Of a stretch of DNA of 27,811 nucleotides, positions 1,935 through 27,811 are shown piece after piece. Made by a program: the position numbers and the translations under genes. The stretch covers positions 1 to 27,811 of IMG/VR virus record IMGVR_UViG_3300032242_000516. One strand, given 5' to 3'. The notes under the pieces were generated by a model, which had not been told where the DNA came from, made no database searches, and worked only from the letters and a program-made list of their open reading frames with translations. The DNA is from a virus. Position 1 is the first letter of the stretch. Each line of letters opens with the position of its first letter.

Positions 1935-4718
1935 ATGGCTACAGGTGGTCTTTACGGCAGCACTTCCACCGGAACGGTTGCCCCTCAGTCTGGTTCAGAA
2001 TCCGTTGGTTTGTACGGAAACAATACAGTCTTTGGTGGAACGTATTTTGAGTGGTTTATCTTTAAAGAAGTTGCAACTCAGCCTGCAACTCCCACTGGCG
2101 GGACATGGAACTTTACAACAAACGTTGGTACTGCTCCTACGGGATGGACAGGACAACCTCCAGTAGCTCCTGCTGCTCAAGTATGGGTTTCTATTGGTGT
2201 AGTTAGCTCTAGAAACACAGCGGCTATTAGTTGGTCTACACCAGGATTGTTTTCTTATGCAAGTGGAACCGTTACTAGTGTTGCTGCACTAACTCTTGGA
2301 ACATCAGGATTTGACGTTTCATCTACTGTAGCTAATCCCACTACAACACCTGTAATTACTCTTAATCTTCCGACCGCTTCTGCAAGCAATCGTGGATTAT
2401 TGAGTTCGGCAGACTGGACTGCTTTTAATGCCAAGCAACCTGCTGGAGTTTATGTTACCTCCGTATCGGGTACTACTGGTCGCATTACAAGCACGGGTGG
2501 AACGACTCCTATTATTGACTTGGCAAGCGGTATTGCTACGGCAGGAACAACCGGATCTGCTACTTTAATACCTGTAATAACTATTGACACTTATGGTCGT
2601 GTTACTGGCATCACTACCGCAGCAAATCCTCAAGGAACTGTAACTTCTGTAGCGGCAACAGTACCGTCGTTTTTGTCCATATCTGGTAGTCCAATAACAA
2701 CTTCTGGAACACTGGCAATTGGATATTCTGGAACTGCTTTGCCGGTTGCAAATGGCGGTACAGGTGCATTGACGCTTACCGGATATGTGTACGGCAATGG
2801 TACGGGTGCAATGACTGCTGCTACAACCATACCGACTACGGTACTAAGTGGCACAGTTACAAATGCTCAGTTAACAAATAGTTCCATAACAATCAACGGG
2901 AACTTAGTTAGCCTTGGTGGATCAACCACCATCACTGCAGCAACTATTAGCACTCTTACGATTGGCACTGGTTTATCGGGTACTTCTTTTAACGGTTCCA
3001 CTCCAGTAACGATTGCTCTTGCAACAGGGTACGGAGACACGCTTAACCCTTATGCATCCAAGACTGCAAACTATGTTTTGGCTGCTCCTAATGGCTCTGC
3101 TGGTGTTCCTACATTTAGGGCCATTGTTGCTGCTGACATTCCAACGTTGAATCAAAATACAACTGGAACTGCTGCAAACATAACGGCAACTAGCAATTCA
3201 ACGCTTACTACTTTAAGCGCATTGAGTTTGCCCTATTCTCAATTGTCAGGAACGGTTCCAACGTGGAATCAAAACACTACTGGCACGGCTGCAAACATTA
3301 CTGCCACATTCAATAGTACATTAACAACTTTGAGTTCTTTGAGCTTGCCTGGTTCACAAGTAAGCGGAAACATTAGCGGCAATGCAGTCAACGTCACGGG
3401 TACGGTTGCTATTGCCAATGGCGGTACAGGCCAGACCACCGCAGCGGCGGCTATTACCGCTTTGTCTGGTACTCAAACATCAGGCTATTACCTACGGTCT
3501 AACGGCACAAATACTTTGCTGGCAGCTATCGTTGCCGGTGATGTTCCAACGCTTAACCAGAACACCACGGGCACAGCCGCAAACATAACGGCTTCGTCTA
3601 ACAGCACGTTAACCACCTTAAGTTCTTTGAGTTTGCCTGGTTCGCAAGTAAGTGGCAATATCAGCGGCAATGCAGCCAACGTAACAGGAGTTGTTGCAGT
3701 AGTAAATGGTGGAAGCGGAGTTACTGTTTCTTCTGGTGCTAACTCAATTGTTTTGCGAGATGCAAACGCAAACATTACTGTTAACTCAATCAATGAGTCA
3801 TTTTCAAGTGTTGCTGCTGCTGGTACTACAACAGTTTTAATTGCAAGCTCTGCGCCTAATTACGTTGTTACTGGTTCAGGTGGTCAAACCTACCAATTGC
3901 CTGATGCAACAACATTAGCTAATGGCATAAATTACACGTTTAACAATAACCAATCTAGCGGAACCATTGTTGTTAAAAATAACTCAAGCACTACAATTGC
4001 AACAGTTCAATCTGGTGGTTTTGTTGAAGTTATTTTGTTAAGCAATGCAACTGCTGCTGGATCATGGGATTTGCATAACTTTGCACCTTCAAATGTATCT
4101 TGGTCAACAAATACGTTTGATTACCCTGGTTCAATTACATCTGCAACATGGAACGGAACGGCTGTAGCAATTAACCGTGGCGGTACAGGACAGACCACGG
4201 CATCTGCTGCGTTCAATGCTTTGTCTCCGGTAACGACTGCTGGCGACTTAATTATTGGTAATGGTACTAATAGCTCAACTCGTTTGGGAATAGGTACAAA
4301 CGGGTATGTTCTTACCTCAAACGGAACAACGGCATCTTGGGCAGCAGCTACAGGCGGCGTAACTCAGATTATTGCTGGTACAAACGTAACTATTTCTCCA
4401 ACAGGAGGAACTGGTGCGGTTACTATTAACGCATCAGGTGGTGGTGGTTCTAGTTCTTATTCAAGGACTACTTTTACAGCTACAGCAGGACAAACTGCAT
4501 TTACGGTTACTTACGCAGTAGGATATTTGCAGATTTATGTAAACGGTGTATTATTAACTGGTTCTGACTACACTGCTACAAGCGGAACTGGATTTACTCT
4601 TTCGGTTGCTTGTGCAGCGGGTGACATTGTTGAAGCTTTAGTGATTACTACCTCTATAAGTACAAGTGGTATTACAACGGGTAAATCTATCGCAATGGCA
4701 CTTATTTTTGGATATTGA
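1935..4718 (+). CDS. Repeat-rich tail fibre protein, 927 residues
   Basis: This is a large Ser/Thr/Gly/Asn-rich beta-type fibre protein that should form part of a trimeric virion fibre. It is built of short motifs common in phage fibres: GTVTSVAA, VANGGTG, NRGGTGQTT, and YGNGTGAMTAAT. Around residues 400-600 a block of about 45-50 residues beginning with NQNTTGTAANITA occurs three times. The C-terminal module (residues about 840-927) starts at YSRTTFTATAGQTAF and includes YLQIYVNGVLL and a final GKSIAMALIFGY, a known fibre-end module in aquatic phages that may bind receptor or cap the trimer. No S74 chaperone domain is present. The ATG at 1935 follows AAGGACTAATT. There is no transmembrane helix. 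Function as a fibre is well supported; the receptor is unknown. Confidence 0.8.
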   Translation: MATGGLYGSTSTGTVAPQSGSESVGLYGNNTVFGGTYFEWFIFKEVATQPATPTGGTWNFTTNVGTAPTGWTGQPPVAPAAQVWVSIGVVSSRNTAAISWSTPGLFSYASGTVTSVAALTLGTSGFDVSSTVANPTTTPVITLNLPTASASNRGLLSSADWTAFNAKQPAGVYVTSVSGTTGRITSTGGTTPIIDLASGIATAGTTGSATLIPVITIDTYGRVTGITTAANPQGTVTSVAATVPSFLSISGSPITTSGTLAIGYSGTALPVANGGTGALTLTGYVYGNGTGAMTAATTIPTTVLSGTVTNAQLTNSSITINGNLVSLGGSTTITAATISTLTIGTGLSGTSFNGSTPVTIALATGYGDTLNPYASKTANYVLAAPNGSAGVPTFRAIVAADIPTLNQNTTGTAANITATSNSTLTTLSALSLPYSQLSGTVPTWNQNTTGTAANITATFNSTLTTLSSLSLPGSQVSGNISGNAVNVTGTVAIANGGTGQTTAAAAITALSGTQTSGYYLRSNGTNTLLAAIVAGDVPTLNQNTTGTAANITASSNSTLTTLSSLSLPGSQVSGNISGNAANVTGVVAVVNGGSGVTVSSGANSIVLRDANANITVNSINESFSSVAAAGTTTVLIASSAPNYVVTGSGGQTYQLPDATTLANGINYTFNNNQSSGTIVVKNNSSTTIATVQSGGFVEVILLSNATAAGSWDLHNFAPSNVSWSTNTFDYPGSITSATWNGTAVAINRGGTGQTTASAAFNALSPVTTAGDLIIGNGTNSSTRLGIGTNGYVLTSNGTTASWAAATGGVTQIIAGTNVTISPTGGTGAVTINASGGGGSSSYSRTTFTATAGQTAFTVTYAVGYLQIYVNGVLLTGSDYTATSGTGFTLSVACAAGDIVEALVITTSISTSGITTGKSIAMALIFGY
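3136..3690 (+). repeat. Three diverged copies of a fibre repeat unit
   Basis: Within the 927-residue fibre gene, the protein segment starting NQNTTGTAANITA and running to LSLP recurs at about 3147-3230, 3267-3350 and 3555-3640. The second and third copies extend into SQVSGNISGNA. The three copies differ at many synonymous positions, and the third uses clearly more GC-ending codons, so they are old or separately acquired duplications conserved at protein level rather than a fresh DNA duplication. Confidence 0.8.
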
Positions 4719-10986: not shown

Positions 10987-13574
10987 TGCCTTATGCTCTT
11001 GATGGTAATCCCTCGCAATCAGAAATATCTGAGGCGATTAATTACCTATTGAGCAACTTTAGTACAGGCGTTACTAGCGACCCTAATACGGGTGAAGTTA
11101 AAGGCCCAACAGGAAACATTCTTAGTTACCTGTACAAATACATGGCGGTGAAATACGCAGATTCGTTTGACGGGTCTGTGAACTTCAGTAACTCACCAAC
11201 AAACCGTCAGTATTTTGGTCTTAGAAACAATGACGATGCTTCTGAATCATCTAACTACACTGACTACATTTGGAATAAAGTAACCGGTGGATTTGGTACA
11301 ACCAAGTTTCTTTGGTATGTATCTACTGGTGGTAGACAGATTCAATTTGCTGTTTCTACAACTGCTCCAGATACCGGATGGTTAATTGATCCAGGTACGT
11401 CTATTGACTTAGACGTTGTTACCTCTGGAAACATTCCTGTTATTGCGGAAACGTTTTTCTCGTATTTCACTCCAAGCACGTTACAAGTTCCTCGGTCTGG
11501 ACTACCGTTAACTCCTAGTTTTACAGGGGTACAGGCTGCTTTGTACTCAATTGACAAAGGTTCTGTTGTTCCTTTTACTGATGCTCAAACAGATTCAAAC
11601 GTTGCTTTTGTAAATAATTCTTGGCGTATTGGCAATTCCTCTACTACCGGCAACGGGGATATTTCTTACACCAACATAACTGTTGGCAGTCCAACTGATG
11701 CTGGTGATTTTGCTTTATGGCCTGCACCAACGGCAATGTCGGCAAACCCTGCTTACATCAGCGTTCCAATACGTTATAAGAACAACCTTGGTGTTGTTAC
11801 CCAAGCAGCAGTAGCAACCGTTCAGTTCATATTTGCAGACCCTGGTGCTACGGGTTACTCTGGCCCAACAATTGACATCTCTGGATATTCTTCGTTTACG
11901 CAGAATGCTGGTGGTGCATTTACTCCTGCTACTGCTACGTTAAGCGCAATAACAACTAACGTTACTAGTCCTACTTATAGCTGGTCTATTACTGGTGCAA
12001 CTCCGACCTCTGCTACAACATCATCTGTTGTAATAACGCCTAACTCTTCTGCTACGTCTATAACAGTAGTATTGACTGTTAACGGGTCAAACCTATCAAG
12101 TCCTGGTAGCAAGACAATCGTAATGCCGGTTGTTTACAACGGTGCTGCTGGTACTGCTGGTGCTAATGGTGTAATGTCTGCCTTTCCTACTATTTACCAA
12201 TGGACAGGCTCTTCTACTCCTCCTACTAGACCTACTACTACATCAACGTATACATGGGCTACAGGGGCTTATACGGCTCCTAGCGGGTGGTCTTCATCTG
12301 CCCCTAGTAACACCACTCAAGGCAATTATCTTTGGACTATTACCTATCCTTTGAACGTAAGTGCTACAACCACTACTTCAACGTTGGATTGGACAGACAC
12401 AGGTAATCCTATTCGAGCTATTGCTTACAACGGGACTGTTGGCCCTACTGGATCATCCGGAGCAAATGGTGCTGCTACATTTGTAATCACAAGGGTTGCA
12501 AACGATAGCTCTGCTCCTACCAATTCTGAAGTATCTGCTGTACTTGGAAGAACTCCTGTTGCTGGAGATATATGTACAGTAAGCTATAACAATTTCAACA
12601 ATGCCGTTGTTTATCGGTACATCACTTCTTGGACGTTATTTGTTACTTACATAACCGGAAGTCTAATTGTTCAAAATACAATTACCGGCGATAAGATTTC
12701 TGCTAATACTATCACTGGTGACAGGATAGCTGCTAATACGGTAACTGCAACAAACATTAACTCTAACAATCTAACCATTAAAGATAATTCAGGCGTTGTT
12801 TTGTTTGGAGCAGGGACTAATCTAAATTATGCAAATATTACTCCAGCAACAGGCTGGTTAAACTCCAACGTAACTATTAATGAAGTTACTGGTGTTATTT
12901 CTCTTGGTGGTGCTGGTGGTGGATCGGTAACAGCAGTCACTCCAAATAACAAAATATCATCTTCAAATATTAGCACTTACATGGCTAGTGCAGCCATTGG
13001 TACAGCGTATATTGGTAATGCTGCAATCACTACTGCTTTGATTGGTGACGCTCAAATCACTACTGCAAAGATTGGCGACCTTCAAGTTGAAACGTTGAAA
13101 ATTGCTGGTAATGCGGTAACAGTTCCTACAGGAGCTTACTCTACCGGTTCAGTAAATTTGCCATTAAACGGTGGATCAACCACTTTGCAAAGTCTTTCGT
13201 TTACATCTAGTGGAGCATCTGTTTACATAGCATTTACTGCTGTTATTAGCTATTATGCAGTTTTAAGGTCGCCAGGAAGTGGTGGCACATATTATCCATT
13301 TAATCAATCTTGGCAAATTTTGTTATACAGAAATGGCACTTTAATTTTAACAAATTTTGCTTTTACTTTAATTGGCCCAGCTTTAACTTCTTCTATTCAA
13401 GGAAGCAATCCTTTGGCAATAAGTTTTTCTGACACACCATCGTCAGGTTCTGTTACTTATGATGTTGTTATACAAGAAACTACTAGCTCTGGTCAAACAG
13501 GATATAACGGTGCTGGAGGTAATTACTATTACGTTTACAACCGTAATTTATTTACTTTGGAGACAAAAAAATGA
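10986..13574 (+). CDS. Large tail fibre / host-specificity protein, 862 residues
   Basis: The N-terminal 300 residues are a folded, unrepeated part that probably docks on the tail. Around residues 329-366 there is an Ig-like segment (PTYSWSITGATPTSATTS), and two short collagen-like stretches (GAAGTAGANG near 385, GPTGSSGANG near 485). Residues about 563-606 carry the ITGDKISANTITGDRIAANT pattern and IKDNSGVVLFGAG, known from host-specificity protein J-type and fibre shafts. The last 140 residues (from NLPLNGGSTTLQSL) form a beta-rich tip. The DNA for that tip is much more AT-rich than the shaft (roughly 28 per cent against 53 per cent GC in sample lines), suggesting a replaced receptor-binding end. 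The start overlaps the previous stop, and the stop overlaps the chaperone start. Confidence 0.75.
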   Translation: MPYALDGNPSQSEISEAINYLLSNFSTGVTSDPNTGEVKGPTGNILSYLYKYMAVKYADSFDGSVNFSNSPTNRQYFGLRNNDDASESSNYTDYIWNKVTGGFGTTKFLWYVSTGGRQIQFAVSTTAPDTGWLIDPGTSIDLDVVTSGNIPVIAETFFSYFTPSTLQVPRSGLPLTPSFTGVQAALYSIDKGSVVPFTDAQTDSNVAFVNNSWRIGNSSTTGNGDISYTNITVGSPTDAGDFALWPAPTAMSANPAYISVPIRYKNNLGVVTQAAVATVQFIFADPGATGYSGPTIDISGYSSFTQNAGGAFTPATATLSAITTNVTSPTYSWSITGATPTSATTSSVVITPNSSATSITVVLTVNGSNLSSPGSKTIVMPVVYNGAAGTAGANGVMSAFPTIYQWTGSSTPPTRPTTTSTYTWATGAYTAPSGWSSSAPSNTTQGNYLWTITYPLNVSATTTTSTLDWTDTGNPIRAIAYNGTVGPTGSSGANGAATFVITRVANDSSAPTNSEVSAVLGRTPVAGDICTVSYNNFNNAVVYRYITSWTLFVTYITGSLIVQNTITGDKISANTITGDRIAANTVTATNINSNNLTIKDNSGVVLFGAGTNLNYANITPATGWLNSNVTINEVTGVISLGGAGGGSVTAVTPNNKISSSNISTYMASAAIGTAYIGNAAITTALIGDAQITTAKIGDLQVETLKIAGNAVTVPTGAYSTGSVNLPLNGGSTTLQSLSFTSSGASVYIAFTAVISYYAVLRSPGSGGTYYPFNQSWQILLYRNGTLILTNFAFTLIGPALTSSIQGSNPLAISFSDTPSSGSVTYDVVIQETTSSGQTGYNGAGGNYYYVYNRNLFTLETKK

Positions 13575-23418: not shown

Positions 23419-23673
23419 CTAAAAAGGCAAATCCGAATCGTCTATCTTTGTTTTACGGGTTGGTGCAGAACTTTGACGGGGGGAGTCCTGCTTTTCTTTA
23501 ACAGAAAGAGAGAAGAACTTTGTACCGTCTTTCTTAGATTCTTTGATCCAAGCATTTAACCAGTACTCTGTACCCTCTACGTTGATAGACCCGTTGTAGT
23601 CAGGATGCCGGTCTTCTTCTTTTTTCGTGTTCTTAAAAAGTGAACCCCTGTTTGTATTGTCATATTCAGCCAT
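23419..23673 (-). CDS. Small OB-fold-like / SSB-tailed recombination-associated protein, 84 residues
   Basis: The protein opens MAEYDNTNRGSLFKNTKK and continues with DYNGSINVEGTEYWLNAWIKESKKDGTKFFSLSVKEK, a five-strand-like pattern seen in small phage proteins next to annealing proteins. The C-terminus is a disordered linker ending in IDDSDLPF, closely like the acidic tip of bacterial single-stranded DNA-binding proteins (DDDIPF), which recruits repair and replication partners. Two features of the sequence, the compact beta core and that tip, suggest a reduced SSB-like protein or a partner of the host SSB network. The ATG overlaps the Sak3 stop by eight bases. DNA binding has not been shown by anything in the sequence; this is inference. 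Confidence 0.7.
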   Translation of the reverse strand: MAEYDNTNRGSLFKNTKKEEDRHPDYNGSINVEGTEYWLNAWIKESKKDGTKFFSLSVKEKQDSPRQSSAPTRKTKIDDSDLPF

Positions 23674-24241
23674 TATTTACCTCATCAAGTTTAGATTTGA
23701 ACGCTTTGATAGCAGAGCGCACTTTACTGTCAATCTTGAGTGCTTCCCACACTGCAAGCCTAACTTCGTTGTCAGAGATGGATTCCCATTCTCCGTACAT
23801 TCCTGCCAGATCACCCTTGGCGTGTAAACCTTTGATGGCCTCCACAACCTGGTCGATCAATCCTGTATCCAATTGCGGAAGATCGTCTCCGGCGTATATA
23901 TATAGACCAAGTCCATGCAAAGATAGACCTTTGGTCATACAACGCATGATGGCTGTATTTACTGCGAAAGCATCAGGGTGCTGGATAGCCTTGTTGCGGT
24001 GATCCATGACCGGCAATTGGCACGTTATAGGCTTGTTAAACAGGGTTACTGTTACCCAAACCATGTAAGTGCCGTTGATGTCAATCCAGCACTTGTCGCC
24101 GAACATTTGTACTTGGAAGTGAGCAGCAGGATCGGCCTTGAGTGCCTCTGCCCATGCCCATGCCCAAGACAGATATGTAAGATTACCTTTCTTCTCCGTG
24201 TGATCGTTTACGTTGAGCTTGAGTAATGTATTAACGTCCAT
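23666..24241 (-). CDS. Single-strand annealing protein, Sak3/DUF1071 type
   Basis: This 191-residue protein probably anneals complementary single strands in phage recombination and repair. The DUF1071 (Sak3) pattern is clear: NLTYLSWAWAWAEALKADPAA near the N-terminus, TYMVWVTVTLFNKPITCQLPVMDH in the core, NKAIQHPDAFAVNTAIMRCM, and KGLSLHGLGLYIYAGDDLP. Established knowledge groups this family with Rad52/Erf-like annealing proteins. The C-terminal 60 residues form a variable helical domain. It lies upstream of the SSB-tailed protein with an eight-base overlap and follows the zinc protein with an 11-base overlap. No nuclease partner gene such as an exonuclease is visible in the window, so DNA-end processing may use host enzymes or RusA-dependent routes. 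Confidence 0.85.
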   Translation of the reverse strand: MDVNTLLKLNVNDHTEKKGNLTYLSWAWAWAEALKADPAAHFQVQMFGDKCWIDINGTYMVWVTVTLFNKPITCQLPVMDHRNKAIQHPDAFAVNTAIMRCMTKGLSLHGLGLYIYAGDDLPQLDTGLIDQVVEAIKGLHAKGDLAGMYGEWESISDNEVRLAVWEALKIDSKVRSAIKAFKSKLDEVNNG

Positions 24242-24449
24242 TAAGAATCTCCTGTTGTTTTGCTTCTATTTCTGCCCAATGCATTTCTTCTTCAATGATG
24301 GATTTTTGTTCATCAAGGTAAAGGTCTTCAAAGGGTACAAAATGGTTTTCTTGGCAGCAGTGGTATTTGTCGCCTTGGGGTTGTAAGCAATAGCAGCAGT
24401 ATGTTGTGCTTTGAAACTCGTCCCGATATTGTTCAAACAGTGATTTCAT
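24231..24449 (-). CDS. Zinc-ribbon-like small protein, 72 residues
   Basis: The protein has a dense cluster of Cys and His: C18, C19, C21, H30, C31, C32 and H36 in TTYCCYCLQPQGDKYHCCQE, which should bind at least one zinc ion. The rest is an acidic helix (DEQKSIIEEEMHWAEIEAK). The ATG at 24449 is preferred: TTGGAG lies five bases upstream; the in-frame TTG at 24461 is part of that site. Its end overlaps the Sak3 gene by 11 bases. Small zinc proteins of this kind are common in phage early operons; a role in nucleic acid or host-protein binding is inferred only. Confidence 0.7.
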   Translation of the reverse strand: MKSLFEQYRDEFQSTTYCCYCLQPQGDKYHCCQENHFVPFEDLYLDEQKSIIEEEMHWAEIEAKQQEILNGR

Positions 24450-24544
24450 ATTAAACTCCAAAATGATAATTAAGCCTGAGTTCCTCGTTGTGAGGAAACG
24501 CTATGTTATACGAACTTTCACCACTTTTTACTAGGTGTTTATAC
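24450..24544 (-). promoter_or_regulatory. Gap in the minus operon with a hairpin and a possible promoter
   Basis: This 95-base gap is the largest noncoding gap in the minus-strand operon. It contains the inverted repeat TTCCTC (24481-24486) / GAGGAA (24492-24497) with loop GTTGT, about 30 bases before the start of the zinc protein, and, reading on the minus strand, TATAAC (24505-24510) as a possible -10 box without a convincing -35. A second short stem (AGGT/ACCT) overlaps the RusA stop. It could be a terminator for the upstream part, a promoter for the downstream part, or a leader structure. Confidence 0.3.
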
Positions 24545-24964
24545 CTATGGCAAAACTTCGTGAACTGTGATAAGAACATGGGGATCAATGCTGTATGTCT
24601 TGGAGACATAGAGTCGGATTACCTGGACATCATCCTTGTATACAATGCCGTTCATTGCATCCAAGAAAGCTTTAGCAACATTGTCTATGTCGGGCTTCTT
24701 TGTAGGCCATTCCTCGCCTGTCAAACAAGCATACCTACGTTTTTTGGAGTAGGACACTGGTACACCTACATGAAGCTCTAAAGTCACGTTTAACGGCGTT
24801 TCTAACGGTTCATGAGGGTACATTTGTAGTCGAGCAGCAGAGGCTATCTTTTCCTCGTACATCTTGGTCTTGGCATCCGTATAGGTCTTGGTAAAGTTTC
24901 CTACTCGAGAAAACCTTGGTCTACCCTTTCCCTTGGGTTCACCTGGTACTTTAAATTCAATCAT
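24545..24964 (-). CDS. rusA: RusA-type Holliday junction resolvase, 139 residues
   Basis: The protein begins IEFKVPGEPKGKGRPRFSR, the first RusA motif, and contains WPTKKPDIDNVAKAFLDAMN and YKDDVQV, which carry the conserved acidic metal ligands (D92, D94 and D111 or D112). It should resolve Holliday junctions formed in phage recombination or branched replication. The ATG at 24964 is chosen because the family starts directly at M-I-E-F-x-V-P-G and because it overlaps the upstream stop by eight bases; a longer frame to 25042 lies inside that gene. Length matches the family. Co-location with Sak3 supports a recombination-dependent mode. Confidence is high. Confidence 0.93.
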   Translation of the reverse strand: MIEFKVPGEPKGKGRPRFSRVGNFTKTYTDAKTKMYEEKIASAARLQMYPHEPLETPLNVTLELHVGVPVSYSKKRRYACLTGEEWPTKKPDIDNVAKAFLDAMNGIVYKDDVQVIRLYVSKTYSIDPHVLITVHEVLP

Positions 24965-25166
24965 TAAGCAATTCCTCTTCATCCACTTCACGCATATAGG
25001 TTCTGACTCTTCGTTCAAATCCTTGTCCGTAGTGGCGTTCAATGTCCCTGATTCGTTTCATTAGCCAGAGTGCTGCTTCTTTCTTTCCTACCTTTTCCAC
25101 AGTAGCGTAGTAAGACGGTACAAGCACTCGAGCTTCTGCTTTTTCTAAGATTTCCCTGTCACTCAT
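24957..25166 (-). CDS. Unrecognised 69-residue helical protein
   Basis: This is a charged, helical protein beginning MSDREILEKAEARVLVPSYYATV with a central KKEAALWLMKRIRDIERHYG and an acidic end (REVDEEELLND). The arrangement resembles small phage proteins found next to RusA, of unknown function. The ATG at 25166 overlaps the stop of the PAPS-reductase-like gene by one base (TAATG). Its own stop overlaps RusA. Its charge pattern would suit a small nucleic-acid- or protein-binding factor; no motif identifies it. Confidence 0.6.
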   Translation of the reverse strand: MSDREILEKAEARVLVPSYYATVEKVGKKEAALWLMKRIRDIERHYGQGFERRVRTYMREVDEEELLND

Positions 25167-26014
25167 TAATCGCCACAAAAGCAAGAAATGCCTTCTTCGT
25201 TTGCGTCAAACATATCGGTTTGTTCTTTTGAAAATTTCAACATTTGTGCATAAGTAGGCCGGTCAATTGCAAAAAATTGTCCATCACCTTCGCATCTTTC
25301 CTGGGCTTTTTGTTCGTGATTTATCCACCAAGTAGCTCTTTCTGGTCTTTCTGTTATCAAACTAAGAATTTGACTTTTTGGTTTTAAGTAACAAAGATCA
25401 CAATTTCCGTGCATTGTTTTACCATTGATATTTGGTAAATTTAAATCAAAATCTTGGCTTTTCCAAAAATTACCTACATCTTTTGCTGAAATTCCAAATG
25501 GTACAAGTGGCATAGAAACAGTTTCATGTTTTCCATCTGGATGAACATTAGATCGAAACTTTGCAACTCTTCTTGGTTCGTCAGCACGAATTCCCAAAAA
25601 TGAATCCCATTCAGTCCAACCAATATGTTTCAAATGACGATGCATTGTTCTTGTTTTTAATTCACTTGAACAATATCGAGAACGTCCATTAGGAAGTGAA
25701 GGATTTCTTTGATTTATCACGCGATCAAATGGCTCTCCTTTTCTACTTGCTGTTTCAAAACTTACAACTTCCGCAAAAGGATTTCTATCCAAAACCATGT
25801 ATTCAAGCCAAACAATGTTTACATCCCATTTTTCTGCGCAATCTTTAACAAATTTCAAAGTTTCTTCTTCTTCTTTTCCAGTATTGCAAAAACAAACTTT
25901 TGCTTCTTTCGGAAGACCGTTGTTTTCTTGTAATGTTCTCCAAAGCATATAGGCGCTTGTACGTCCACCGCTAAACGAAATGCACGTTGGTTCGGTAATT
26001 TTGAATGGATTCAT
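25166..26014 (-). CDS. PAPS-reductase-like PP-loop enzyme, 282 residues
   Basis: The PP-loop signature ISFSGGRTSAYM (from residue 12) places this in the ATP-pyrophosphatase / PAPS-reductase superfamily. Further motifs are CFCNTGKEEEETL, YCSSELKTRTMHRHL, and GIRADEPRRVAKF, as in the phosphoadenosine phosphosulfate reductase-like proteins of phages and in DndC-type enzymes. A CDLC pair (C205, C208) and a terminal CFC pair (C278, C280) could hold a metal or iron-sulfur cluster. No DndB, D or E and no modification partner is visible. The DNA is clearly more AT-rich than the helicase beside it, suggesting separate acquisition. The start ATG 26014 has a weak GAG site; ATG 26026 would overlap the helicase stop by eight bases. 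The substrate (nucleotide, tRNA or DNA) is unknown. Confidence 0.8.
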   Translation of the reverse strand: MNPFKITEPTCISFSGGRTSAYMLWRTLQENNGLPKEAKVCFCNTGKEEEETLKFVKDCAEKWDVNIVWLEYMVLDRNPFAEVVSFETASRKGEPFDRVINQRNPSLPNGRSRYCSSELKTRTMHRHLKHIGWTEWDSFLGIRADEPRRVAKFRSNVHPDGKHETVSMPLVPFGISAKDVGNFWKSQDFDLNLPNINGKTMHGNCDLCYLKPKSQILSLITERPERATWWINHEQKAQERCEGDGQFFAIDRPTYAQMLKFSKEQTDMFDANEEGISCFCGD

Positions 26015-26018
26015 GGTT

Positions 26019-26975
26019 TCACTCATAGACAAAAACAGGATCAAGGGGCTGTCCAATGAACTGCCCTGAGTCCCTATGCAACCACAGCGAGATAGCTGGT
26101 TCACCGTCACCACTGCCTTCGTAATGCCGTTGTTTACAGCACTTCAGGATTGAGTCAAACTCAGCAGCTTTAGTGCCAAATTTTCCGTTGTTTCTGACAT
26201 CATCTTCTTTGGCCTTGTTTCGGAACACTGTAAAGACATTGTCTACCTGGTCAGAGATTGAACCACTGCCCTTCAAGTCGTATTTGTCAGGAATGACATT
26301 CTCGTTAGCTGGTTTGCGTACATGGTGGATCAAGTGGATATGGACGTTGTGGTCTTTTGCAATTGAGAACAATTCCGCTACCAACATCTTCTGACCGGTC
26401 ATATCCTCTTCCGATCCAACAACCTTCATGAGTGAGTCAATGAAAATGTGGTTGATCTTCAACTCTTTGGCGCAGTACCTTGTCATACCAATTACGGTTT
26501 CAACGTTTGTTGTACCGGTCTGATCGTAAATCCACAGGTTCTTAGACCAAGCACCAAACTTGTCCAACAAGAGGTCTAGGACTTCGTATCCTTCATCGTT
26601 CTGGTACTCAGGGGTGAAGGGGTTGGTTCCTATGTACATCCGAGACATCAGGCGTATGGTCTGTGCAGGCTTCATCTCGAAGCTTGCAATAGCGACCTTT
26701 TCTTTCTGTTTTAACAGGTGCATTGCAATCTGGGCAGTAACTTGAGACTTTCCATGTCCGTTCATCCCTGCCCAGACTGTTACTTCACCTGGTCGAAAGT
26801 AGAAAGAATCGTTTGCTTTTTCCCAAGGCATCCAAACCTTACGCTCTTTGCTCGAATCCCGCATCTGCTTTTTGATGGCAGGAATGTAAACAGCAGCACT
26901 CTTTACGTTGGTTTGGTTGTCTGTTTCCTTCAGGTATTGGGTGAAATCAATACTGTCGTCCAGGTAATTAGCCAT
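26019..26975 (-). CDS. DnaB-like replicative helicase (RecA-fold ATPase), 318 residues
   Basis: The Walker A motif GMNGHGKS (70-77), Walker B HIFID (176-180), and helicase motifs HLIHHVRKP (214-222) and KGSGSISDQVDNVF (235-248) are all present, which match the C-terminal motor of DnaB/T7 gp4-type hexameric helicases. The 60-residue N-terminus is too short to be a DnaB N-terminal domain and has no primase zinc motif, so this is a motor-only protein that probably depends on the DUF1376-type protein upstream or on a host primase. It overlaps the upstream gene by eight bases. Classification as helicase is strong; a RecA-like ATPase of other use, for example a recombinase, is the alternative. Confidence 0.85.
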   Translation of the reverse strand: MANYLDDSIDFTQYLKETDNQTNVKSAAVYIPAIKKQMRDSSKERKVWMPWEKANDSFYFRPGEVTVWAGMNGHGKSQVTAQIAMHLLKQKEKVAIASFEMKPAQTIRLMSRMYIGTNPFTPEYQNDEGYEVLDLLLDKFGAWSKNLWIYDQTGTTNVETVIGMTRYCAKELKINHIFIDSLMKVVGSEEDMTGQKMLVAELFSIAKDHNVHIHLIHHVRKPANENVIPDKYDLKGSGSISDQVDNVFTVFRNKAKEDDVRNNGKFGTKAAEFDSILKCCKQRHYEGSGDGEPAISLWLHRDSGQFIGQPLDPVFVYE

Positions 26976-27297
26976 TGAAAACCTCCATCCAAAAGACTTC
27001 TTGTTTCTCAGGCATCACTTCATTTGTTTGACAAGCAATGACTGTCGTTGCACCATGTCTCACACAGGCGTTTAAAAGGGCTTTTCCGCGACTTTCTGAC
27101 TCCGTTGATATGTGGACTACTGTTCCCACTAAAAACCGCAAATCAAGGGTTTCTATTACGTCACCATCAACGCAAACATGGGGGTAATCTCCGTGTTCAT
27201 GCCAGTCTGTCAGAGGGGTTGGGTAGTCTTGGATAAAGATGCTTTCAGGTAGCAAACGTTTTTTCCGTAACGCAATGATGTGTTCATGGCCTCTCAT
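26968..27297 (-). CDS. Conserved unknown phage protein between initiator and helicase genes, 109 residues
   Basis: The sequence begins MRGHEHIIALRKKRLLPESIFI and contains DYPTPLTDWHEHGDYPHVCVDG, LDLRFLVGTVVHISTESESRGKALL, and a final VFWMEVFNG. The arrangement, alternating strands and helices around the conserved RFLVG and S.SE.R.KAL motifs, is recurrent in phages next to helicase genes, where it has no assigned function. There is no metal or nucleotide motif. It overlaps the upstream gene by four bases (ATGA) and the helicase by eight, so it is translated with both. A role in helicase loading or regulation is a reasonable guess only. Confidence 0.7.
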   Translation of the reverse strand: MRGHEHIIALRKKRLLPESIFIQDYPTPLTDWHEHGDYPHVCVDGDVIETLDLRFLVGTVVHISTESESRGKALLNACVRHGATTVIACQTNEVMPEKQEVFWMEVFNG

Positions 27298-27811
27298 ATC
27301 AAACCTTTCATAAAATCGTTTTTTGGTTTACCTTTAACCCACTCAGCGTTGAATGATGTCCAGTTGCGAACAACAATTTCTTTCAACGCATCTTCAAGAC
27401 TCCAGCTTGCAAGAGATGCTTGTTTAGCAATGCTGTCTAGCACTAACTGAGTGATCTGTGCTTTCTTCGTTTTTCTCTGTTGTACAAAGGCTGCCCAAGT
27501 TTCAGGCGTTACACCAGCCGGTGCTTCTATCTTTTCTTTCTTTACTGGTTCTTGGTTATTGGTTATTGGTTTATGGTTATTGGTTGGTTGAACGTCTGTT
27601 GAACGTCCGTTGAACCTTTGTTGAGCAGACGCTTTACCAGCCTTCGAAGCTTTCTCAATTTTGTCTCTGTAATGCTGGATTTCTTTGTTAACTCTTTCGG
27701 AAAACCAACCTTCGTTTTGATTGACAAAAAACTCTTCCAATACGATGGCAATGCTTTCGCTATGCGTTCGCATACGAACCAACCTTGAAATCTCTTCAGG
27801 GTCTACTGGTA
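27294..27811 (-). CDS. DUF1376-type replication protein, C-terminal part (5' end outside window)
   Basis: The frame is open to the window edge at 27811; the first in-frame possible starts (TTG 27782, ATG 27773) are inside a continuing protein, so the N-terminal part is missing. The visible start SRLVRMRTHSESIAIVLEEFFVNQNEGWFSERVNKEI, then QHYRDKIEKASKAGKA, is the C-terminal end of the DUF1376 domain of phage replication initiators. A low-complexity linker (QPTNNHKPITNNQEP) follows, then a C-terminal helical domain (VTPETWAAFVQQRKTKKAQI; SLEDALKEIVVRNW; NAEWVKGK) of the type thought to contact the helicase or loader. The linker DNA carries the two tandem repeat blocks described separately. The stop overlaps the next ATG (ATGA). 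Confidence 0.8.
   Translation of the reverse strand, partial: PVDPEEISRLVRMRTHSESIAIVLEEFFVNQNEGWFSERVNKEIQHYRDKIEKASKAGKASAQQRFNGRSTDVQPTNNHKPITNNQEPVKKEKIEAPAGVTPETWAAFVQQRKTKKAQITQLVLDSIAKQASLASWSLEDALKEIVVRNWTSFNAEWVKGKPKNDFMKGLI
27553..27587 (-). repeat. Five tandem 7-base repeats in the initiator linker
   Basis: Five units of TGGTTAT on the plus strand (27553-27587; the third reads TGGTTTA and the fifth TGGTTGG) repeat with a seven-base period, so each unit changes reading frame. The repeat therefore cannot be explained simply by a peptide repeat. It is moderately AT-rich and abuts the 11-base repeats. Confidence 0.85.
27588..27631 (-). repeat. Three to four tandem 11-base iteron-like repeats in the initiator gene
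   Basis: On the plus strand TTGAACGTCTG (27588), TTGAACGTCCG (27599), TTGAACCTTTG (27610) and a decayed TTGAGCAGACG (27621) follow one another with an exact 11-base period. Eleven is not a multiple of three, and the encoded peptide shows no repeat, so the periodicity exists at DNA level. The period is close to one helical turn, as expected for sites read by a DNA-binding protein on one face. Confidence 0.85.

Follow-up and report, generated by a model that had tools for sequence, protein, structure and literature searches.

A two-part repeat element in the linker of a DUF1376-family initiator gene, most likely a phage replication origin

Near one end of the viral DNA analysed here (IMG/VR record IMGVR_UViG_3300032242_000516; the whole stretch of 27,811 nucleotides is called the window), two short tandem-repeat arrays lie side by side within the coding sequence of a putative replication initiator. 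This raises the question of whether the repeats merely follow from the peptide they encode or form a DNA element in their own right, and, if the latter, what that element does. A preliminary description had located the repeats at 27553-27631 and inferred an origin of replication. Their presence was confirmed by TRF and by Monte Carlo comparison, but the left edge had to be moved, as the 7-mer block reaches 27542, about 10 bases further. The revised element, window 27542-27631 on the minus strand, is far from chance.

The coding (minus) strand of the arrays reads TCAACAAAGGTTCAACGGACGTTCAACAGACGTTCAACC, followed by AACCAATAACCATAAACCAATAACCAATAACCAAGAACC. Its 11-mers, (GTTCAACNGNC)n, contain an imperfect dyad of the form GTT-N-AAC and are present in three good copies and one decayed copy, and its 7-mer units follow the pattern AACCANN (AACCAAT, AACCATA, AACCAAT, AACCAAT, AACCAAG, and AACCAGT). 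The matches at lag 7 (30 of 37) and at lag 11 (23 of 27) each mark the best stretch of its length in the whole window, and none of 200 Markov-1 simulated windows reached the observed lag-7 or lag-11 value. When codons were shuffled synonymously within the gene, the lag-7 value was reached in 0 of 20,000 trials, while the lag-11 value had a p of 2.5e-4. As had been proposed, the repeats are out of codon register, neither period being a multiple of 3. Elsewhere in the window, large ORFs contain in-frame repeats of 117 and 30 bases (3139-3349, 12675-12739, and 13011-13079); both unit lengths are divisible by 3, as protein repeats should be.

Table 1. Positions of the repeat arrays, the gene that carries them, and the neighbouring genes in the window
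Feature	Position	Strand	Evidence and remarks
DUF1376-family replication initiator	27294..27809	-	Pfam, PHROG, AlphaFold2 model of near-identical L023; linker holds the element
11-mer array	27587..27631 (TRF 27587-27624)	-	TRF: 3.5 copies, GTTGAACGTCT, 85%
7-mer array	27542..27585	-	TRF: 6.3 copies, TTATTGG, 81% matches
109-codon ORF between initiator and helicase	26968..27297	-	No family match (Pfam, PHROG)
DnaB-like helicase/ATPase, presumed partner of the initiator	26019..26975	-	PF03796, E 1.7e-14; PHROG 239 DNA primase/helicase, E 2e-55

What the window holds of this DUF1376 gene is its last 171 codons, the N-terminus being lost at the window end. Because of this truncation the fragment scores only 22.9 bits against DUF1376 (PF07120), under the Pfam gathering score of 30.1, while a complete and near-identical gene (L023) scores 80.7 bits. 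Two PHROG families were also matched: 6451 ('primosomal protein') by the initiator with E 3e-20, and 678 ('replication initiation O-like') by residues 62-161 of the window protein with E 8e-14. Besides DUF1376, no Pfam match was found in the N-terminal domain of the window protein or of L023. The helicase gene anticipated downstream is indeed present (Table 1). Beside it, on the minus strand at 23666-26113, are genes for a Sak-type annealing protein and a RusA resolvase together with a PAPS-reductase-like gene, a compact replication/recombination module.

AlphaFold2 was run on 43 relatives and gave a model for the near-identical L023 protein. The L023 model has a confident alpha/beta N-domain (helices 8-15, 20-36, 44-50, 57-67, and 78-107, with two short strands before the last helix), a linker with pLDDT below 65 that is predicted to be disordered, and a helical C-domain. 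The arrays correspond to linker residues of about 108-141, between the two domains. From the order of these elements we read the modelled N-domain as winged-helix-like. When the model was compared with the PDB by Foldseek, none of the solved DNA-binding proteins was matched significantly, although weak matches included winged-helix proteins, and DNA binding by the N-domain is therefore unproven; against viral models, it matched other DUF1376 and Lin1244/Lin1753-like proteins.

Relatives found through the protein share a near-invariant DNA string (ACC AAT AAC CAT AAA CCA ATA ACC AAT AAC) in otherwise divergent genes. Since the first search for relatives had relied on the peptide NNHKPITN, it was followed by three tests with less bias. 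Specifically, viral contigs were scanned with all 12,288 synonymous codings of TNNHKPITNN permitted, which gave at least 80 matches; among the matches listed, 77 of 80 used one coding and the other three differed from it by 1 base. After reduction to non-redundant genes (by an ungapped N-domain identity threshold of 75-85%), the 30 nt were identical in 55 of the 58 genes among the matches listed, with one silent base changed in the other three. The background codon-use probability of this coding is 9.4e-5 per gene, and it includes ATA and ACC codons, whose usage elsewhere in the same genes is about 22%. Moreover, 31 non-redundant relatives picked by N-domain patterns alone had linkers with strong periodicity at lags 7, 14, 11, and 22 (z = 15, 8, 11, and 9, respectively, against within-gene synonymous shuffles), while their C-domains gave no signal at these lags and their N-domains a weaker one, mainly at lag 22 (z = 6.7). 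The last test used the DNA-only pattern (AACCANN)5, which occurs at least 123 times in at least 80 loci; all of the matches listed fall inside same-strand ORFs, 83 of 123 carry the DUF1376 signature, and the rest are, by eye, nearly all initiator linkers. Homogeneous arrays were found at a single one of the 80 loci listed, which does not meet the criterion for microsatellites, and the order of unit variants recurs across diverged phages. Individual codons follow the same trend: in one class of linkers (class c, below), the residue varies at CNA (P/Q/R) and NGC (G/S/R/C) codons, where the first or second base is free and the third is fixed. The expectation that the repeats would be kept in DNA while the linker peptide varies was thus met, a result strongly in support of the preliminary interpretation. 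As judged from these comparisons of sequence, the repeats are DNA elements rather than noise of a linker peptide, and it is close to certain that they act in cis.

The element has the same two-part organization across many relatives. Linkers were sorted into classes by regular expressions: class a, to which the window belongs, combines GTTCAACNGNC 11-mers with AACCANN 7-mers; class c combines GCNAACGCAAT 11-mers with ACACANN 7-mers and encodes the peptide DANALxTQSExNATQDT; class b has CCCC/AATAGC-type repeats with AACCANN; and there are other types, for example one with three copies of AGTCGGAACCC (L221). The sequence of the 11-mer (e.g. GTTCAACNGNC, GCNAACGCAAT, or AGTCGGAACCC) differs by clade while its 11-bp step is constant, as is the 7-bp step of the AACCANN or ACACANN units. 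Over the 62 nt that precede the 7-mers, the strongest period is lag 11 in classes a, b, and c and among unclassified linkers, and this is also the best lag in 21 of 34 distinct flanks found by the 7-mer pattern alone, among the matches listed. Lag 11/22 is present in all linker classes, and the two periods adjoin in the same order in every class. Hybrids that join class-c 11-mers to class-a 7-mers also occur (L313 and L270). Cultured phages of Moraxella, Acinetobacter, Vibrio, and Methylophilaceae carry 7-mer arrays of diverged sequence and nearly constant step. The preliminary description held that relatives with the protein and without repeats would refute an origin; such relatives do occur but are rare (L104 has neither array, and L105 has no such repeat motif in its linker), and some others have another type of repeat. 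Ahead of the 7-mers, the class-b linkers of L054, L070, L074, and L109 contain an inverted repeat of the GGGGAGGCTAATAGCCCCCC type.

Outside viral contigs, a 25-nt core of the array had only 4 matches listed in 84,980 cellular genomes, each in an initiator-like gene. One of these, in a record titled Clostridium tertium (L224), has no DUF1376 match and only a weak, below-cut-off match to DnaB_2 (E 5e-4) in its C-domain; its gene shares the 7-mer core, together with what look like ACGATAAGTGA-type repeats spaced by 11-12 bp. When the families of G006 (Clostridium tertium) and G005 (a Burkholderiaceae MAG) were searched for the pattern, almost only homogeneous microsatellites came up. A BLAST search with the 42-mer gave no match, probably owing to the low-complexity filter. 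An exact scan for (AATAACC)x3 was set aside, most of its matches being repeats that immediately precede start codons in phages of another kind. The other viral contigs L003, L005, L007, L009, L012, L014, L015, L016, and L018 carry (AATAACC)n directly upstream of an ATG, mostly outside long ORFs, and this is a different use of a similar heptamer. The Limnohabitans phage DC33 (L231, PQ492659), filed as Inoviridae, has a record of a 39-kb genome; its protein has only the C-domain in common and no DUF1376 element.

At the scale of whole genomes, exactly one 7-mer array was present in each of 9 phage genomes examined, where it belongs to the 0.3-16% of 42-bp windows with the lowest stability. In Mcat22 and P19250A it is only moderately unstable, with 13-16% of windows less stable. 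A relative (G001) of 41,128 bp, with a 123-bp terminal repeat that suggests a probably complete genome, has GTTSAAC sites at 30661, 30672, and 30683, in 11-bp steps that run directly into the array at 30691. Of 8 genomes examined, only 2 had an extremum of GC skew at 1 kb or less from the element; in the 8 genomes GC and AT skew follow gene direction, and skew is uninformative on the position of an origin.

A tree of the N-domains of 104 genes separates the fates of the two halves of the protein. The 11-mer class changes 4 times on this tree against 33.6 times when shuffled, and the 7-mer type 3 times against 27.4, whereas the C-domain family changes 14 times against 15.1 (at a stricter clustering cut-off). 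This pattern in the sequences indicates that the element is inherited together with the N-domain while the C-domain is freely exchanged, though the linkage of 11-mer and N-domain may be partly one of physical adjacency.

Several explanations other than an origin can be set against these data. The preliminary description had named chance slippage in a disordered linker as the main alternative, and linkers do tolerate repeats, just as cellular genomes contain homogeneous (AACCAGT)n and similar microsatellites. Slippage is nevertheless excluded as a general explanation, because 79 of the 80 phage arrays listed are inhomogeneous and diverged phages share the order of unit variants; it also leaves unexplained two periods side by side in a constant order, and we consider it very improbable. 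Another possibility is that selection acts on the peptide of the linker (TNNHKPITNNQEP) or on how this stretch is translated, given that many members of the family have the peptide and that its frame is nearly always the same. The constant frame, however, is explained by stops in the other two forward frames, and the peptide with freely varied codons is absent among the matches listed, where one of 12,288 codings prevails; with amino acids varying over fixed third bases as well, this account is scarcely credible.

Recombination offers another reading, in which the common DNA is kept because phages swap C-domains there. The conserved block does lie at a domain boundary, and C-domain families are exchanged as if at random with respect to the N-domain. 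Yet it would remain unexplained why arrays that differ in sequence keep strictly to periods of 7 and 11 bp, and why bases are free at defined unit positions, and the element stays with the N-domain; we regard this reading as improbable, and recombination at the element may instead be a side effect of an origin. The main rival is a different cis site of the same protein, i.e. an autoregulatory operator or a centromere-like partition or packaging-related site. All of the data fit any sequence-specific site recognised by the N-domain, a replication assay is absent, and skew is of no help. Conversely, operators normally lie at promoters. The position in mid-gene, flanked by the presumed DNA- and partner-binding domains, the AT-rich array of another period next to the iterons, the single array per genome, and the downstream helicase gene all fit an origin better. 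A small but real chance remains that the element is such a site.

We consider the element most likely to be the phage replication origin, placed in the disordered linker of its own initiator gene, with binding, melting, and origin activity all inferred. An origin is very probable because many related phage genes keep the DNA letters or the exact spacing while the surrounding protein varies. Comparison with known systems points in the same direction. In phage lambda, the N-domain of O serves DNA and its C-domain the helicase-loading partner, a division of labour also inferred for the DUF1376 protein. The element resembles the lambda origin in lying within the initiator gene and in having direct-repeat iterons adjoining an AT-rich segment, and it meets the features of that type, namely tandem iterons between initiator domains and an easily opened AT-rich neighbour (only moderately so in some genomes). 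It differs in that the 11-bp repeats of the window and its relatives are tandem without a gap, while lambda iterons are about 18 bp; in that its second part repeats an AACCA or ACACA core at a strict 7-bp step; and in its N-domain, since Pfam does not place DUF1376 in the family of lambda O. Iteron plasmid origins (RK2, P1 oriR, and F) have iterons of about 17-22 bp, usually outside coding sequence, with DnaA boxes and short direct repeats in an AT-rich DUE region. The element shares with them the combination of iterons and short AT-rich direct repeats but does not fit the Rep/TrfA type, given its 11-bp period and the lack of any DnaA box within 2 kb (the nearest perfect box is at 25245).

Lambdoid phages have their origin midway along gene O, where it consists of iterons and an AT-rich region (PMC7466680). 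P1 oriL likewise lies inside its initiator gene, repL, where synonymous substitutions narrowed it down and showed an AT-rich part to be important (PMC9948254); its initiator is unrelated, and an 11/7 repeat architecture is not reported for it. An origin is the best reading of the element because its anatomy matches that of lambda gene O (PMC7466680) and P1 repL (PMC9948254), with sites in the initiator gene, between presumed DNA- and partner-binding domains, by an AT-rich repeat, and with a helicase gene further downstream. Closer to the family itself, the YdaU (DUF1376) gene of the E. coli Rac prophage adjoins a gene for a putative ATP-binding protein and has GTTCAA-type repeats at 11-12 bp steps in its linker but, unlike the window, no 7-mer array. 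Rac has an active origin, oriJ (PMC3945230), whose position relative to ydaU is not claimed here. Beside these GTTCAA repeats, the Rac gene (L225) has a CCCCCCTAAATCCCCCCCGGGGG stretch coding PLNPPRG, a peptide also found in L028-type relatives, and this stretch is possibly a further DNA element. Among the papers searched, none dealt with DUF1376 or ydaU as origin-bearing. By analogy with these systems, the best explanation would be that initiators of the DUF1376 family have an intragenic origin like that of lambda but of a new type, made of two parts.

We propose that the N-terminal DUF1376 domain would bind the tandem 11-mers, sites one turn apart on the same face of the helix, and that the resulting nucleoprotein complex would strain the adjoining AT-rich 7-mer array until it opens. 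One strand may then be held through its repeated AACCA core, by the initiator or by another protein, and the interchangeable C-domain would recruit the phage helicase or its loader, encoded downstream. Binding of the 11-mers by the N-domain is probable but inferred without binding data, and opening at the 7-mers, for which melting data are lacking, is a reasonably likely inference; helicase recruitment or loading through the C-domain is likewise inferred. The 7-mer array is proposed to be either an unwinding or a second recognition element. Far more tentatively, and with the odds against it, the 7-bp array might represent a distinct and widely shared class of origin opening, with an AACCA/ACACA core per 7 bases that is read as single or opening strand and coupled to clade-specific 11-bp iterons, in phages of many hosts and even with the L224 initiator.

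By its name, DUF1376 is still a protein of unknown function. If the origin reading is true, sequence alone would have given many phages and prophages a mapped origin, an iteron code, and an initiator function, and the variety of 11-mer types that nature pairs with N-domains would be a ready set for work on protein-DNA specificity. More generally, the strict 7-bp array raises the concrete question of how origin DNA opens.
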